46,173 nucleotides of DNA from a virus: positions 1 to 46,173 of the IMG/VR virus record IMGVR_UViG_3300010293_000007. One strand, given 5' to 3'. The position numbers and the translations under genes were made by a program. Shown here one piece after another: positions 27,350 through 45,699 of the stretch. Under the pieces are notes generated by a model. That model saw only the letters and a program-made list of their open reading frames with translations, had not been told where the DNA came from and ran no database searches. The number at the start of each line of letters is the position of its first letter. The stretch's first letter is position 1.

Positions 27350-28222
27350 ATGGCGTTTCCATCAGATATTGCATTACCTGCTAATGCAAAATATTTTAGT
27401 TATATTGAATCGGTAAAAAGATATAATACAAATTATGATGTTGTATGGTCTTTTCAATTTGCTATATCTTCTGGAAATCCAAATGCACAATATATTTTAA
27501 CAACATTTCTTACAAATACTCCATATTTAACTGCTTATCCTGCGCAATATGGCGGATATAGTACTAATATGAATGGTGTTTATTTAAGAGATGAAACAGG
27601 AGATTTTCTTTTAACAGATACATATGAAAGATATCTTTTAGAAGAAGCTTGTGTTGGATTAGATTATTTGTTAACAGAAGATGGTGAAATTTTATTAACA
27701 GAAGACGGTATACCATTTATTGGAGATGATATTAGTTGTAATCCATCTGGATTATTAGGAATTGCAATAGATACAACTGGTCTTTTCGCTCTGTCTTCAA
27801 CACTTAGAGATGGTGTTACATATAATAATGTTAAGCCTTACAGTTTAATTGTTAGGAATGATTTTGATAATGTTCTTTATAATGAACAATTATCTTCAAT
27901 AAACAGTGATTTCTTCTTTTTATCCTCGCAAGCAAATTATCAAACAATAAGAGTTCGTACTGCTAATAAAGGCAATCTCTTATATATTGATTATAAATCA
28001 CCTACAGCTACAACATATACATTATTAACATCTTTTGCTATCGATTTATATACACAAGATAATAGTTATGCATATATTGGTGTTTCATTTTCTTCACCGG
28101 TATCATCTTCAACAATGGCACCAGTAACATTATACATGAAAAACTTTCACATTGAGGGCAATTCTGCTTTAGATATTGCATATGAAGATTTAAATTATTC
28201 ACCCTTATACACTTGTAGTTAA
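27350..28222 (+). CDS. Tail-associated lectin-like protein
   Basis: This is a 290-residue protein. The segment FLLTDTYERYLLEEACVGLD followed by YLLTEDGEILLTEDGIPFI (about residues 84-124) contains the 'LLTEDG' repeat common in phage tail and adhesin proteins. The C-terminal 150 residues (YSLIVRNDFDNVLYNEQLSS ... YAYIGVSFSSPVSSSTMAPV) have the beta-strand rhythm of an L-type lectin or jelly roll. It probably contributes to host surface binding. The next gene begins 2 bases after the stop. Confidence 0.5.
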   Translation: MAFPSDIALPANAKYFSYIESVKRYNTNYDVVWSFQFAISSGNPNAQYILTTFLTNTPYLTAYPAQYGGYSTNMNGVYLRDETGDFLLTDTYERYLLEEACVGLDYLLTEDGEILLTEDGIPFIGDDISCNPSGLLGIAIDTTGLFALSSTLRDGVTYNNVKPYSLIVRNDFDNVLYNEQLSSINSDFFFLSSQANYQTIRVRTANKGNLLYIDYKSPTATTYTLLTSFAIDLYTQDNSYAYIGVSFSSPVSSSTMAPVTLYMKNFHIEGNSALDIAYEDLNYSPLYTCS

Positions 28223-28224
28223 TT

Positions 28225-30255
28225 ATGGCATTTACTATTATTTCTGCAGATTTCAAAATTAATGGCGTTACTGTAGTAACAGCAGATGCCCCAGTTACTG
28301 TAACCTTTTCATTAACTATTTCTGGTTATGGTGGGACAGGCACCGCTTATATTGATTTGGGGGACGGAGAAACACTAGACGGAGAAATACTAGAGATTGG
28401 TAACTTTGACGGATCAGGCACCGTCCTTAGTGGGAAATATACATATAATACACCTGGTGTATATATAGCTTTTCCTTTTTATATTGATGATGATAGACTC
28501 CCTACTTGGGAGTTTGGACCCAAACTCCCAATTTTAAATTGGGAGTTTGGATCGTTTTTATATGGGACAATTATTGTTGAAACACCAAGCACTACACCAA
28601 GCACTACACCAAGCACTACACCAAGCACTACACCAAGCACTACTCCTGCGCCGCCTAGTTTAATTGTAACAAAAGCTGCCAATGAAGAATTGGGAGAACA
28701 AGAATTTGAAATTAGTGTTGTAGATGTTGCAAATAGTCGCACCCTTAACATTTTTAATTTAAAACAAGGTGAATCAAGAGCTGTTGATGCTGCTTATTTT
28801 CCAATAGGCACAAATATGAAAATAACAGAAACCCCAATTGCGGGTTTCTATGTTGATACAATTTCAGTATATGATGGTAATGGTGCAAGTATACAGAATA
28901 ATACAAACACAGTAACAATTGAATTGGGTACATTAACAAATTCTGTTACATTTTCCAATACACTTTCATCTCCATCTTTGTCTTCTTTAAGATTAGTTGT
29001 TCAAAAAGAAGAAAATGAAGAGTTGGGTGATCAATATTTCCAATACCTTGTAACAGACCCTGAAACAACTGATACAATTGCTGCATTTAATTTAAGACAA
29101 GGGGAACAATACTTCATTAATTTACCCAATTATAGTATTGGGGATATCATTCAAGTAAAAGAATTTATTAATGTAACAAATACTGCTTGGTTTGAAAAAG
29201 CAGAAGTTTTTGACAACGGAGAAATTCGTACTGAATTAACACCATTTGTTAATGTCGAATTGGGGGAAATAACTAATACTGTAACTTATTTTAATACGAT
29301 TTCTTCCCCCCCTTTATCTTCCTTAAGATTATTTGTATATAAACAACCAAACAATGATTTACAAAATGAAATTTTCCAATATACTGTAACTGATTCAAAA
29401 ACAGGAAACGTTATTGATAATTTTAATTTAACACCAAGCAATTTTCATGCTGTCGATGTTTCAGGATATCAAGTGGGTGATAAATTACAAGTAACAGAAA
29501 CAATCCCCAATTTGCCAATTGTTTGTAAATCTCTTGAAGTCATTGATAAAAATGGTTGGCGACGACTAAATCAAAACAGTGTTGAAGTTACATTAGATGT
29601 AATAACCAATTCTGTTTTCTTTACTAATGATACTATTACTACAACAACCCCTCCACCAACAGGACCGCCTATAATTCAAATTGTAAAGCAACAATCAAGT
29701 AGTAGTACTTCTCAAGTGGGTAGTTCTCGTTTTATGGTTGATAATAGAACTAATTTCTATTTGAAACCTGAAGAATCAATTATTATTGATAACAATTATT
29801 TTGATAGTATTACAGGAGAATTAAAAACAAGAACTGTAGGAACACTATTAATTGTTGTAGAATACCCCGAAACAAATATTGATGTTGAAAAAGTCACTAT
29901 TGAAAATGCAAATGATACAATAACATATACTAATACACAAGCAATTATAACAGCATTAACACAAGGTTTAAATAAAATTACATTTTATAATACAAATAGT
30001 TGTGACTCTTGTTTACCAGCACCAACACTTCATTCAAATACAGCAATTCGTCCTACAACAACTACTGTTACAACACAACCACCAAGAACTACACCAGGAC
30101 CAATAGATATATTTTCTCCTGTAATTGACATAACAACCACGACACCAACAACAACACCTGCACCAACAACAACTCCAGCCCCAATACCACGACAGGGAAT
30201 AACAACAACCCCCAATCCGTGTGATACCTCTGCTTGCAAAACATTGAAATTCTAG
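28225..30255 (+). CDS. Mucin-like adhesin with tandem Ig/SpaA-like repeats
   Basis: This is a 676-residue protein. Residues about 1-100 form a PKD-like domain (IDLGDGETLDG ... YTYNTPGVYIAF). A Thr/Pro/Ser linker follows, encoded by five exact 12-bp repeats (28582-28641). Then come three tandem domains of about 115 residues (about 145-250, 255-360 and 363-470). Each begins LxVxKxxNxxLxxxxFxxxV, continues with an FNLxxx turn, and ends VxxxLGxxTNxVxFxN, as in SpaA/prealbumin-like folds. A fourth, divergent unit and a long Thr/Pro-rich tail (about 600-660) with several Cys residues close it. The layout is that of a stalked adhesin. It is directly followed by a GalNAc-transferase-like gene. Confidence 0.65.
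   Translation: MAFTIISADFKINGVTVVTADAPVTVTFSLTISGYGGTGTAYIDLGDGETLDGEILEIGNFDGSGTVLSGKYTYNTPGVYIAFPFYIDDDRLPTWEFGPKLPILNWEFGSFLYGTIIVETPSTTPSTTPSTTPSTTPSTTPAPPSLIVTKAANEELGEQEFEISVVDVANSRTLNIFNLKQGESRAVDAAYFPIGTNMKITETPIAGFYVDTISVYDGNGASIQNNTNTVTIELGTLTNSVTFSNTLSSPSLSSLRLVVQKEENEELGDQYFQYLVTDPETTDTIAAFNLRQGEQYFINLPNYSIGDIIQVKEFINVTNTAWFEKAEVFDNGEIRTELTPFVNVELGEITNTVTYFNTISSPPLSSLRLFVYKQPNNDLQNEIFQYTVTDSKTGNVIDNFNLTPSNFHAVDVSGYQVGDKLQVTETIPNLPIVCKSLEVIDKNGWRRLNQNSVEVTLDVITNSVFFTNDTITTTTPPPTGPPIIQIVKQQSSSSTSQVGSSRFMVDNRTNFYLKPEESIIIDNNYFDSITGELKTRTVGTLLIVVEYPETNIDVEKVTIENANDTITYTNTQAIITALTQGLNKITFYNTNSCDSCLPAPTLHSNTAIRPTTTTVTTQPPRTTPGPIDIFSPVIDITTTTPTTTPAPTTTPAPIPRQGITTTPNPCDTSACKTLKF
28506..28550 (+). 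repeat. Three 12-bp copies in alternating orientation
   Basis: TTGGGAGTTTGG occurs at 28506-28517 and 28539-28550, with the exact inverse CCAAACTCCCAA at 28520-28531 between them. The inverse copy can pair with either direct copy, giving two mutually exclusive hairpins with 2- and 7-base loops. The protein repeat WEFG results. Confidence 0.85.
28582..28641 (+). repeat. Five tandem 12-bp repeats coding TPST
   Basis: ACACCAAGCACT is repeated five times without change, encoding a Thr-Pro-Ser-Thr linker. Identical copies suggest recent slippage and length variation among related phages. Confidence 0.92.
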
Positions 30256-30265
30256 TATCTATTTC

Positions 30266-31102
30266 ATGGCAAAGTTAACGATTGGGATGCCAACATATGA
30301 TGATTATGATGGTGTTTTCTTTACATTACAAGCATTGCGCATGTATCATTCCGAATGTGCAAATGATTTAAAGTTTCTTGTTATTGATAATAACCCGACA
30401 AGCCCACATGGTGTTGCTCTTAAAAATTATATTGTTAATTGGGCATCAATATCACAAAATGTTGAATATGTTCCTTTTACAGAATACAAATCAACAACAA
30501 TAAAAAACAAAGTATTTGAATATGCAACAACACCTTATGTAATGTGTATTGATTGCCACATATTAATTGTTCCTGGCGCTATTAAAAAATTAATTGAATT
30601 CTTTGATGCTGGATTGGATAAAGGAAATCTGCTTCAAGGCCCCCTCTTATATGATGATTTAAAAAGTATTAGCACACATTTTGACTTAATTTGGAATGAT
30701 AATATGTGGGGTACATGGAGTACTGATAAAAGAGGTCTTGATGAAAATGCTGAACCTTTCGAAATACCCGCACAAGGAATGGGATTATTTGCATGTAGAA
30801 GACACGCTTGGCTTGGTTTTAATTCAGCATTTAGGGGATTTGGAGGAGAAGAAGGATACATTCACAAAAAATATATTAAAATGGGTAGAAAAACATTATG
30901 TCTTCCATTTTTAAGATGGATGCATCGATTTAATCGCCCTAGTGGCACACCATATCCACTGTTTTTAGAAGACCGTTTTCGTAATTACTTAATTGGGTTT
31001 TCTGAATTACAAATAGATACAGATGAAGTATTCAAACATTTCAAAGGAAAACTACCAGCAAAACGTGTAAAAGAAATAAAACAAGAATTAGGTATGATGT
31101 AA
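30266..31102 (+). CDS. GT-A glycosyltransferase, polypeptide GalNAc-transferase-like
   Basis: This is a 278-residue GT2-type enzyme. The N-terminus KLTIGMPTYDDYDGVFFTLQ is the nucleotide-sugar binding start. DCH at 96-98 is the D-x-H metal site. The acceptor half holds FGGEEGYIHKKYIKMGRKTL (192-211) and WMHRF at 218-222. The order DxH, then GGE followed by a helix, then a Pro-rich strand and a final His resembles the GT2/GT27 family, whose members include the mucin-type polypeptide GalNAc-transferases. Its place 10 bases after a Thr/Pro-rich adhesin gene suggests that protein as acceptor. Transfer of another sugar, or to host surface glycans, is possible. Confidence 0.75.
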   Translation: MAKLTIGMPTYDDYDGVFFTLQALRMYHSECANDLKFLVIDNNPTSPHGVALKNYIVNWASISQNVEYVPFTEYKSTTIKNKVFEYATTPYVMCIDCHILIVPGAIKKLIEFFDAGLDKGNLLQGPLLYDDLKSISTHFDLIWNDNMWGTWSTDKRGLDENAEPFEIPAQGMGLFACRRHAWLGFNSAFRGFGGEEGYIHKKYIKMGRKTLCLPFLRWMHRFNRPSGTPYPLFLEDRFRNYLIGFSELQIDTDEVFKHFKGKLPAKRVKEIKQELGMM

Positions 31103-31333
31103 ATGATGATACTCAATACACATATTGTGTCTCATAGATGGAAATCTTTCATCAATATACTTCTGAATTGCGAGGGGTTTTATCCATTGGTTTGTATTTA
31201 AAACCTTTAGTTCTTGCGCTTTTTGAGATATAATTTCAACTGCTTCAACAAGACACGCCCATCTTGAAAATTCATCTAAATCCATACTATATGGCTTATT
31301 TTTTTTAAGTTTAAATTTTATATTCTGATTCAT
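31088..31333 (-). CDS. Small protein, function unknown
   Basis: This is an 81-residue protein whose ATG lies 23 bases inside the upstream gene. A second ATG at 31285 (MDLDEFSRW) is an alternative start. Composition is mixed helical with a His-rich end (EYHHLHHT). It meets the glycosyltransferase gene tail-to-tail with a 15-base overlap. No family is recognised. Confidence 0.45.
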   Translation of the reverse strand: MNQNIKFKLKKNKPYSMDLDEFSRWACLVEAVEIISQKAQELKVLNTNQWIKPLAIQKYIDERFPSMRHNMCIEYHHLHHT

Positions 31334-31775
31334 CTTGTATATTATCTGAAAGTTCCCTTTCTTTTTGAGCTTCGGCTTGTGCTTGTAATTCAGAAAATAT
31401 TCGTTCTGCGCTTATTGGATTTGTTATTAATACTGGTGTTAAGTCGATATTTACACGAAATTGATTTTTACATTCAGGACAATCAAAAATATTATCACCT
31501 GTAACAAAAAGAACTTCCTTTGCTGTATATTTTCCACAAGGGCATTCCACTAATGCTGTTTGTTGTTCTAATATTTTTTCAATTTCTTCAGAATTATTGC
31601 GATTTAAACGTTCCAATTTAAAATATTGATGTGTAAGCCACAAATATATTAAAATAAACTGTGTAACTACTGCTAAACAAAATCCTGACCAAAATGTTAA
31701 TAATTCCTTTAATCCATATGCTATTCCGGCACTTAATAATAAAAGGACAAATATTGCAACAAATATGCTTTTCAC
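31311..31775 (-). CDS. Membrane protein with zinc-ribbon domain
   Basis: This is a 154-residue protein with a GTG start at 31775, fixed by a consensus sigma70-like promoter ending just before it. Residues 4-20 and about 29-48 are hydrophobic and should form two membrane helices. A short coiled-coil-like stretch follows (LERLNRNNSEEIEKILEQQ). Then comes a four-cysteine zinc ribbon with C78/C80 and C99/C102. The C-terminus is Glu/Gln-rich. A membrane-anchored zinc ribbon expressed early could act on a host membrane complex, but its target cannot be read from sequence. Confidence 0.55.
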   Translation of the reverse strand: MKSIFVAIFVLLLLSAGIAYGLKELLTFWSGFCLAVVTQFILIYLWLTHQYFKLERLNRNNSEEIEKILEQQTALVECPCGKYTAKEVLFVTGDNIFDCPECKNQFRVNIDLTPVLITNPISAERIFSELQAQAEAQKERELSDNIQDESEYKI

Positions 31776-41325: not shown

Positions 41326-42045
41326 TTATTTTGTTTTCCATTTATTTAAAAACCATCTTTCCCCTTCTTTCCATTCTTGTGTAAATTCTTTTAAACCATG
41401 TGATTGATGTGTTATCATAATATCACCTACACCTATTTTCAACCTATTTTTATGACAAGTTAAAACAAAATCTAAATCGTAAAAGTGGTATTTCGATGGG
41501 TTTGTTTCATCTGCTTTAATATCTTTTACTTTATCTACCCGCATTGCAAGAAATACACCATCTAATACAACAACACGATGTGGATAAATACCAAATGCGG
41601 TTATATGTTTTTTTGAATGAAGGTGGGAATGTGGATTTAAATCGTTTGAATAAATGTGCGTAACTGCTCCGTGTAAATTTTTTGAGCCAAATCCTCCACC
41701 CATTAAATGCCATAATGCGAGAGATTGTAATTTGATTTCACTTGCACCAGCAACACCAATGACATCGAAATCAAAATATCTACGGTCTAAATAGTTGGCT
41801 AAATCAACTGTATTGATATAAATGTCATCATGACAAATAACAAGCCAATCGTATTTTTCTTTATCTGCTTTTGCAATTAATTTATTATATACGACTGGTA
41901 GAGCAGTTTGATTATTTAGTGTAAAAAAATAATCAACTTCGTGTTTATCAATTTCTGCATGACGGATTATATCATTCAAAGAATGAACAACAAGTGTATC
42001 ATTTTTGTGTGATTCTTTAGATATTGGGCAAATTAGTAATTTCAT
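41326..42045 (-). CDS. Glycosyltransferase-like protein coupled to a glutaminase
   Basis: This is a 239-residue protein. ATG at 42045 is chosen over an upstream in-frame start at 42093, because it overlaps the previous stop as ATGA. It begins MKLLICPISKESHKNDTLVV. A VICHDDIYINTVDLANYLDR segment supplies an acidic DD metal-site candidate, VVLDGVFLAMRVDK is the central strand, and YHFYDLDFVLTCH looks like the acceptor-side motif. This is the pattern of StrF-like GT-A glycosyltransferases, which often modify surface glycans or nucleosides. Its acceptor cannot be read from sequence. Coupling to an amidotransferase suggests an amino- or amide-bearing product. Confidence 0.65.
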   Translation of the reverse strand: MKLLICPISKESHKNDTLVVHSLNDIIRHAEIDKHEVDYFFTLNNQTALPVVYNKLIAKADKEKYDWLVICHDDIYINTVDLANYLDRRYFDFDVIGVAGASEIKLQSLALWHLMGGGFGSKNLHGAVTHIYSNDLNPHSHLHSKKHITAFGIYPHRVVVLDGVFLAMRVDKVKDIKADETNPSKYHFYDLDFVLTCHKNRLKIGVGDIMITHQSHGLKEFTQEWKEGERWFLNKWKTK

Positions 42046-42704
42046 ACAAAAATAAACGGCGAAGATGTTGAAAAAGTTCCTACCTTTCTCCACATTTTGG
42101 GTGTTTTTCTCAAAAGAATTCCTTCTTCAAGCAATTTATACCCCTTTCCTTTTAATGTGGAGAAACAACCTTTACTATTATAGTGTAATACGGAACCTTG
42201 TCGTGCTAAATACACATCATTTGTATCTTTATTTAAAATGCATAATGCAAATGTGCCTTCTAACATTGATAAAACATCAGTAATCACTTTTATTTGTGTA
42301 TTAATATCATAAATTGGCTTACTTTCACAATGCATTTGTAATAAACTAAGAATTCTACTAGAATCCACAGGATTTTCATCCCAAGGGACATATTCTTTTA
42401 ACTCTTTATCATTTGTAAGCACACCATTGTGTAATATTGCCCAATTTAATCCGCAAAATGGGTGTGATGTATCATATGCCCACTTACGTTTTGCAGAAGT
42501 TGGTGCTTGAACATGTCCAATATAATAATTTGCATCATTTGGTAAAGTTTGTTTTTCAAAATTAAATGATCCTTGTTTCTTTATTGTTTCTTGTCTATCA
42601 TTATAAAGTAAAATCACACCAGAAGCAAAATTGCCTCTAGGCAAATTCACTTCGTAGAGTGTTTCGAATAGAGATAAATTATTTGACCCTATTATGGCAC
42701 ACAT
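42042..42704 (-). CDS. Stand-alone class II glutamine amidotransferase domain
   Basis: This is a 220-residue Ntn-type glutaminase. Cys2 follows the initiator Met (MCAIIG) and would become the catalytic N-terminal residue. GHVQAPT (63-69), LHNGVLTN (91-98) and later NPVDSSRILSLL and GTFALCIL match the PurF/GlmS/AsnB glutaminase fold. No synthetase or sugar-isomerase domain follows, so ammonia must be passed to a partner protein, perhaps the coupled glycosyltransferase. AGGAGG lies 9 bases before ATG, one of the few clear Shine-Dalgarno sites in the window. Confidence 0.82.
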   Translation of the reverse strand: MCAIIGSNNLSLFETLYEVNLPRGNFASGVILLYNDRQETIKKQGSFNFEKQTLPNDANYYIGHVQAPTSAKRKWAYDTSHPFCGLNWAILHNGVLTNDKELKEYVPWDENPVDSSRILSLLQMHCESKPIYDINTQIKVITDVLSMLEGTFALCILNKDTNDVYLARQGSVLHYNSKGCFSTLKGKGYKLLEEGILLRKTPKMWRKVGTFSTSSPFIFV

Positions 42705-45096: not shown

Positions 45097-45699
45097 ATGA
45101 GGGAAAATTATATTAAAATTTCTAAACTAGCAAAAGACTTAGGTGTTACTAAACAAACTATTTGGAATTGGAAATATAATGGCGATTTAGAATTTATTAA
45201 AGTAGGCAATTTAAATTGTGTCACTAAAGAAACCTATAACAATCTACTAGGAATTGAAAATAAGAAAAAAGAATCTGTTGTCATTTATTGTCGAGTTTCT
45301 TCTTCTGAAAATAAATCAAATATAGAAACACAAAAACAAAGACTTCTAAATTATTGTAATGCTAAAGGTTATCAAGTATCAAATGTAGTACAGGAATTTG
45401 GATCAGGAATTAATGATAAACGTCCTAAACTAGAAAAACTTTTAAAAGAACAAAACTTCACTAAATTAGTTGTTGAACATAAAGATCGTCTAACAAGAGT
45501 AGGATTTAATTATATAAACACTCTTCTAAATCACAATCAGATTGAAATCGAAGTTGTAAACCTAGCAGAAGACGACAAAAATGATTTGATTCAAGATTTT
45601 GTTTCCATCATTACGTCTTATTGTGCAAGAATATACGGAAATAGACGATCTAAAAGAAAAACAGAAAAATTAATAAAGGAGCTTGAAAGCAATGATTAG
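45097..45699 (+). CDS. tnpA: IS607-type serine recombinase TnpA
   Basis: This is a 200-residue transposase. Residues 1-50 form a MerR-like helix-turn-helix (YIKISKLAKDLGVTKQTIWN). The catalytic domain starts at about 60 with VVIYCRVSSSENKSNIETQK, where the serine in the RVS turn (about Ser68) attacks DNA. QEFGSGINDKRPKLEKLL and VVEHKDRLTRVGFNYI follow, all characteristic of the IS607 recombinases that catalyse excision and insertion through a circular intermediate. The length equals typical family members and no damage is seen. The tnpB start codon lies 8 bases before its stop. Confidence 0.93.
   Translation: MRENYIKISKLAKDLGVTKQTIWNWKYNGDLEFIKVGNLNCVTKETYNNLLGIENKKKESVVIYCRVSSSENKSNIETQKQRLLNYCNAKGYQVSNVVQEFGSGINDKRPKLEKLLKEQNFTKLVVEHKDRLTRVGFNYINTLLNHNQIEIEVVNLAEDDKNDLIQDFVSIITSYCARIYGNRRSKRKTEKLIKELESND

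Follow-up and report, generated by a model that had tools for sequence, protein, structure and literature searches.

A GALNT-like glycosyltransferase encoded next to a Thr/Pro-rich mucin-like protein in an apparently divergent T4-like phage, with relatives in other phages and in bacteria

Introduction

Mucin-type O-glycosylation that starts with a polypeptide GalNAc-transferase (ppGalNAc-T) is, to our knowledge, considered a trait of eukaryotes. The eukaryotic ppGalNAc-Ts (CAZy GT27), among them GALNT2, GALNT10 and the Toxoplasma GalNAc-T3, are the nearest solved folds to the phage enzyme described here. They share with it a DxH motif plus a third His, GGLFA and GGE in a common order, and their mucin acceptors are resembled by the Thr/Pro-rich neighbors of the enzyme. 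In contrast, the phage and bacterial enzyme, predicted from sequence and a structural model, is 12–16% identical to them and is devoid of a lectin domain.

Bacteria also possess GT2-type peptide and protein glycosyltransferases, such as the flagellin O-GlcNAc enzymes and SunS of SPbeta, which are cytosolic GT-A enzymes that modify the product of a neighboring gene. The phage pair has the same layout, i.e., a GT2-type GT-A enzyme, presumably cytosolic, with the gene of its presumed acceptor adjacent. It differs from them in that the fold search prefers the ppGalNAc-Ts and the acceptors would be Thr/Pro-rich.

The nearest precedent, as far as it is reported by the citing paper, is the virion glycosylation of mycobacteriophages (Freeman et al. 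2023, cited in PMC12619734), in which phage genes are thought to modify structural proteins and glycans have been reported at the C-termini of capsid and tail-tube subunits. Here, by contrast, a mucin-like protein of the tail region, whose C-terminus carries conserved Cys, is presumed to be the acceptor; the comparison of the mycobacteriophage enzymes with the 278-aa enzyme is confined to a tblastn search of phage records, which gave no match.

Within the open literature covered (most subscription papers lie outside it), no pair of a Thr-rich protein and a GALNT-like enzyme of this type is described. A single-domain phage or bacterial enzyme with the ppGalNAc-T fold and metal motifs, encoded beside a presumed acceptor, would make the origin of this chemistry testable. 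If true, it would also mean that virion proteins of uncultured phages are modified in a new way, and it would provide a compact enzyme for producing O-glycosylated proteins in E. coli.

Phage Setting of the Gene Pair

The window, i.e., the whole stretch of DNA analyzed, is a 46,173-base IMG/VR record (IMGVR_UViG_3300010293_000007). Genes for a gp6-type baseplate wedge protein (PHROG 219, E 1e-40), a clamp loader, a helicase, a primase and gp32 support its assignment to a very divergent T4-like phage, the wedge protein being about 23–31% identical to its best matches in isolate phages. The gene pair is located downstream of fiber genes encoding a Pfam Mtd_N domain, which presumably form the receptor-binding region, and of a conserved 290-aa gene, and upstream of conserved minus-strand genes (Table 1). 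Relatives retain the same gene framework, in which the Thr-rich gene is a variable slot.

Table 1. Features of the gene pair and of the genes flanking it.
Feature	Coordinates	Strand	Basis or remark
Conserved gene of the structural region, preceding the variable Thr-rich slot	27350..28222	+	Homologues in the same place in L014, L018, L023-25, L027, L032, L038-40, L136, L140
Mucin-like protein, 676 aa; presumed virion protein and acceptor, presumed cytosolic before assembly	28225..30255	+	ORF; position after fiber genes
Perfect TPST tandem array	28582..28643	+	12-bp unit, 5.2 copies, 100% match
Pilin-like (CnaB/SpaA-type) repeat 1	28654..28986	+	aa 144-254
Pilin-like repeat 2 (modelled)	28987..29322	+	aa 255-366
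Pilin-like repeat 3	29323..29655	+	aa 367-477
Divergent fourth repeat	29671..29994	+	aa 483-590; 25% identity with repeat 2
Thr/Pro-rich C-terminal tail, presumed glycosylated stretch	30043..30219	+	Composition; mixed Thr codons
C-terminal motif CDTSACKTLKF	30220..30252	+	Local version of C-x(3,4)-C-x-x-L-x-[FY]-stop
GALNT-like GT-A glycosyltransferase, 278 aa, without lectin domain	30266..31102	+	Pfam GT2, AF2 model, fold search
DxH metal-binding motif, D96-C97-H98	30551..30559	+	D96 and H98 invariant in 51 relatives; aligned with GALNT10 DSH
FGGEE (F192-GGEE), counterpart of GALNT WGGE	30839..30853	+	GALNT10 alignment
WMHRF (W218-MHRF)	30917..30931	+	H220 in register with the His of VGHIYR in GALNT10
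Two conserved genes closing the slot	31088..31775	-	Homologues 3' of the enzyme in many syntenic loci

The Mucin-Like Protein and the Adjacent GALNT-Like Enzyme

The protein encoded at 28225-30255 contains 106 Thr, 49 Pro and 49 Ser among its 676 residues, and a PHROGs search with it returned no family. Its repeats 1–3 are about 40% identical to each other. The model obtained for repeat 2 (pLDDT 91) is all-beta, with the pilin-like beta fold of CnaB/SpaA domains. Since its best PDB matches are streptococcal pilins (best E 3e-4, TM up to 0.65), the label “SpaA-like” is right. The fold is thus shared with the major pilin/T-antigen and FctB of streptococci, while here it is found in a phage protein with a Thr/Pro stalk.

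The enzyme gene starts (30266) 10 bases past the stop codon of 28225-30255. Its product matches Pfam PF00535 (GT2) with an E-value of 5e-7 and 30.3 bits, above the curated cut-off of 23.3, and was modelled with AlphaFold (AF2) at a pLDDT of 95.4 from an alignment of 51 relatives. When this model was searched against the PDB, the best 50 matches were all ppGalNAc-Ts (E down to 1e-13, TM 0.62–0.77). A profile alignment with GALNT10 scores weakly (E 0.003) and covers most of the catalytic domain, placing DSH, GGLFA, WGGE and VGHIYR of GALNT10 in register with DxH, GLFACR, FGGEE and WxHRF of the enzyme. Seven residues of the enzyme (D96, H98, G193, W218, H220, R221 and F222) are invariant across the 51 relatives. 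D96, H98 and H220 are the presumed metal ligands, with Asp209, His211 and His344 as counterparts in GALNT1, for which the roles of these residues have been described (PMC4202792), the third His being a metal ligand in GALNTs.

With respect to GT27, the enzyme combines a catalytic GT-A fold nearest to the ppGalNAc-Ts in the fold search with a DxH motif and a third metal-binding His aligned with GALNT10, and it has no C-terminal ricin-type lectin domain, being a single domain that Pfam assigns to GT2 only. Sequence profile scores rank TarP and chondroitin synthase above the GALNTs. Searches of PHROGs and NCBIfam returned no family, and tblastn against 50,697 phage records gave no match even at an E-value of 1. 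Altogether, the GALNT-like nature of the enzyme is well supported by the fold search and the colinear motifs of the predicted protein; it probably works like a ppGalNAc-T, although by domain make-up it is not a full member of the family.

What the original prediction had seen in these two genes stands, the positions of both ORFs included. The perfect TPST repeats are as it described them, the long Thr/Pro tail reaches near the C-terminus, and the three tandem Ig/SpaA-like domains agree with the pilin matches of the model and are followed by a divergent fourth that it had not noticed. Likewise, the enzyme does start ten bases after the Thr/Pro-rich gene, and the ppGalNAc-T order that it had proposed for DxH, FGGEE and WMHRF was recovered in the GALNT10 register.

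Pairing in Phage Relatives

An alignment search of IMG/VR returned 257 stretches encoding relatives of the enzyme, from which 80 loci were retained. In 21 of the 23 loci with both flanks present and an enzyme at least 59% identical, a Thr-rich ORF lies at most 500 bp from the enzyme gene, and it usually ends 9–14 bp upstream of it. Clustering at 90% identity left 14 clusters of close relatives, 11 with a Thr-rich ORF. Relatives of the second glycosyltransferase of the window served as control, with a Thr-rich ORF nearby in none of 65 loci; a second control query yielded just 4 loci, nearly identical to one another, and was left out. In these counts, T/S/P-rich ORFs were identified by a mechanical rule that also admits spurious frames, and the loci are not all independent. 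On a tree of the relatives, the Thr-rich label is scattered, with 24 changes and no clustering, which argues for a pairing that recurs rather than one inherited once.

The heads of the partners fall into several unrelated groups, and many partners are headless, consisting of a nearly pure Thr/Ser/Pro stalk and the C-terminus. “Mucin-like” is therefore a better general term for them than “adhesin”. Five loci (L009, L014, L018, L028 and L135) encode two or three consecutive Thr-rich proteins, all of them ending in the Cys motif, ahead of a single enzyme gene. In L050 (9092-9931) and L053 (9091-9945), a Bbp16-type virion protein ending in GTTTTTTSTS is encoded directly upstream of the enzyme gene.

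Partners of the close clade share a previously undescribed C-terminus, C-x(3,4)-C-x-x-L-x-[FY]-stop, represented by 24 distinct tails. Among the 5,444 unique ORFs of the loci, a looser version of the pattern was found in a single ORF without a Thr-rich end. Two scans of IMG/VR DNA using the motif alone, and not the enzyme, retrieved 22 stretches, 19 of them with a Thr-rich motif ORF, and the enzyme is close by in 17 of these 19. The remaining two (L136 and L140) match L009 and end before the position of its enzyme gene. The Cys motif may recruit the enzyme or anchor the partner. A Cys-rich 367-aa protein without Pfam match also occurs among the Thr-rich motif genes (L136 2312-3415, minus strand; L140 1074-2177, minus strand; L009 981-2084, plus strand), with diverged copies in L027 and L018.

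Distant viral loci (below 59% identity) have a Thr-rich neighbor in 2 of 45 cases at the threshold used. Their enzyme genes adjoin DNA polymerase, recombinase, helicase or exonuclease genes, or have terminase/portal flanks. The enzyme gene is next to a structural-protein gene in close relatives and in L050/L053, and not in distant relatives. Thr/Ser/Pro runs were also counted in the whole records of the distant relatives, many of them fragments, and the reversed-pattern control was high as well. In L038-L040, synteny and enzyme are conserved while the Thr-rich partner is absent. Distant phage relatives may act on other acceptors, DNA included.

Bacterial Relatives

Relatives of the enzyme, mostly larger proteins, are encoded in 50 bacterial loci. 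Thr-rich ORFs are enriched near them (17/289 within 500 bp versus 2/1054 farther away, p 3e-10), and about 40% of the bacterial relatives adjoin Thr-rich proteins, many of them Tat-exported. The main partner family has a Tat leader, RR..K..LP.xW.KPVV..V..PAHA (with a conserved W-x-K-P...PAHA), and a Thr/Pro tail, while porin-like proteins carrying Thr tails are further partners. These partners are unrelated to those of phages. Tat exports folded proteins and would therefore fit a modification taking place in the cytosol ahead of export. Collectively, the pairing of the enzyme with Thr/Pro-rich proteins is well supported by its recurrent neighborhood in phages and bacteria.

In two bacterial fusion relatives, the N-terminal part resembles HprK-related kinase A (NCBIfam TIGR04352), below the curated cut-off, a part that is absent from the phage forms. 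Such an enzyme domain behind an HprK-related-kinase-A-like domain, beside Tat-exported Thr/Pro-tailed proteins, is encoded in L090 (7017-8828), L100 (7038-8831) and others of the bacterial loci (L085-L134). For these cassettes, the pairing gives a context from which function can be predicted. A PqqD-like domain occurs in one neighbor in these loci and an NTP_transf_5 domain in another. The bacterial pairs include one from Bradyrhizobium (L100) and one from Desulfofustis (L112). Across 385 genomes of one bacterial class, the enzyme was found in the centre genome only, and the family is thus rare there.

Proposed Function and Alternative Explanations

Protein O-glycosylation of the Thr/Pro-rich neighbor is the best explanation of these data and a probable one, for which we infer catalysis, acceptor, sugar, virion location and benefit. 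The enzyme would be a cytosolic, metal-dependent GT-A glycosyltransferase acting before virion assembly and transferring a sugar to Thr/Ser where the product of the gene immediately upstream is rich in Thr and Pro. This acceptor would be a modular, mucin-like virion protein in which a head of variable make-up, consisting here of four pilin-like domains, is combined with a Thr/Pro stalk and with a C-terminus of constant form, Cys-x(3,4)-Cys...Leu-x-aromatic. Once modified, the stalk could be extended, masked or resistant to proteases, and the conceivable benefits are stiffening, shielding or host binding.

The original prediction of a dedicated O-glycosylation system, with an adhesin and its own transferase, holds in part. 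Conservation of the pair in related phages, which it had proposed as a check, is largely found in the close clade (21/23 loci, control 0/65) but does not extend to most distant relatives or to L038-L040. The system is not strictly dedicated, as relatives lacking a Thr/Pro-rich neighbor, which the prediction had counted against itself, do exist outside the close clade, both among the distant loci and in L038-L040. Specificity for an adhesin does not hold, as partners also include headless stalks, the Thr-tailed Bbp16-type protein and bacterial Tat-exported proteins.

Among other explanations, the enzyme could glycosylate modified phage DNA, its place after the Thr-rich gene being incidental. 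DNA-modifying phage glycosyltransferases are known, as reported by the citing paper (Pyle et al. 2024, cited in PMC12619734), and several relatives adjoin DNA polymerase, UvsX-like recombinase, helicase or exonuclease genes. However, this possibility appears unlikely, given that the fold matches are ppGalNAc-Ts, that Thr-rich neighbors are far above background in close relatives and in bacteria, and that DNA modification makes little sense for bacterial relatives located beside exported Thr-rich proteins. A role in making or altering a host or phage polysaccharide (surface glycan), e.g., for receptor change or superinfection block, is improbable to the same degree: most close relatives lack further glycan genes next to them, yet have the Thr-rich partner 9–14 bp upstream, and no polysaccharide-export genes adjoin the pair in the window, whereas the enzyme of L030/L031 is clustered with GT8- and GT1-type enzymes and TarP and chondroitin synthase are among the profile matches.

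It is likewise unlikely that the Thr-rich tracts are slippage-prone linkers in variable tail genes, with the enzyme as a hot-spot passenger. While the TPST array repeats perfectly at the DNA level and the Thr-rich slot is variable, Thr is encoded by mixed codons, 24 distinct tails retain the C-terminal motif, the enzyme is paired again with unrelated partners in bacteria and with the Bbp16 gene, and the control enzyme family gave 0/65.

Beyond O-glycosylation of the neighboring protein in this phage, a prokaryotic counterpart of mucin-type O-glycosylation can be envisaged, for which we see the chances as evenly balanced. A GALNT-like family would be distributed in uncultured phages and bacteria, many members having their own Thr/Pro-rich acceptor, with the Cys motif marking phage acceptors and Tat carrying the bacterial ones out after modification in the cytosol.

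The donor would probably be a UDP-HexNAc, e.g., GalNAc or GlcNAc, GalNAc being a guess guided by the predicted fold. Elsewhere in the window, a gene on the minus strand (42042-42704) encodes a GlmS-like glutaminase domain (NCBIfam PRK00331, E 5e-9, partial match), which possibly feeds hexosamine supply; it overlaps the second glycosyltransferase gene (41326-42093, minus strand; Pfam Glyco_tranf_2_5). A Resolvase-type recombinase with an HTH-like start is encoded at 45097-45699 on the plus strand.
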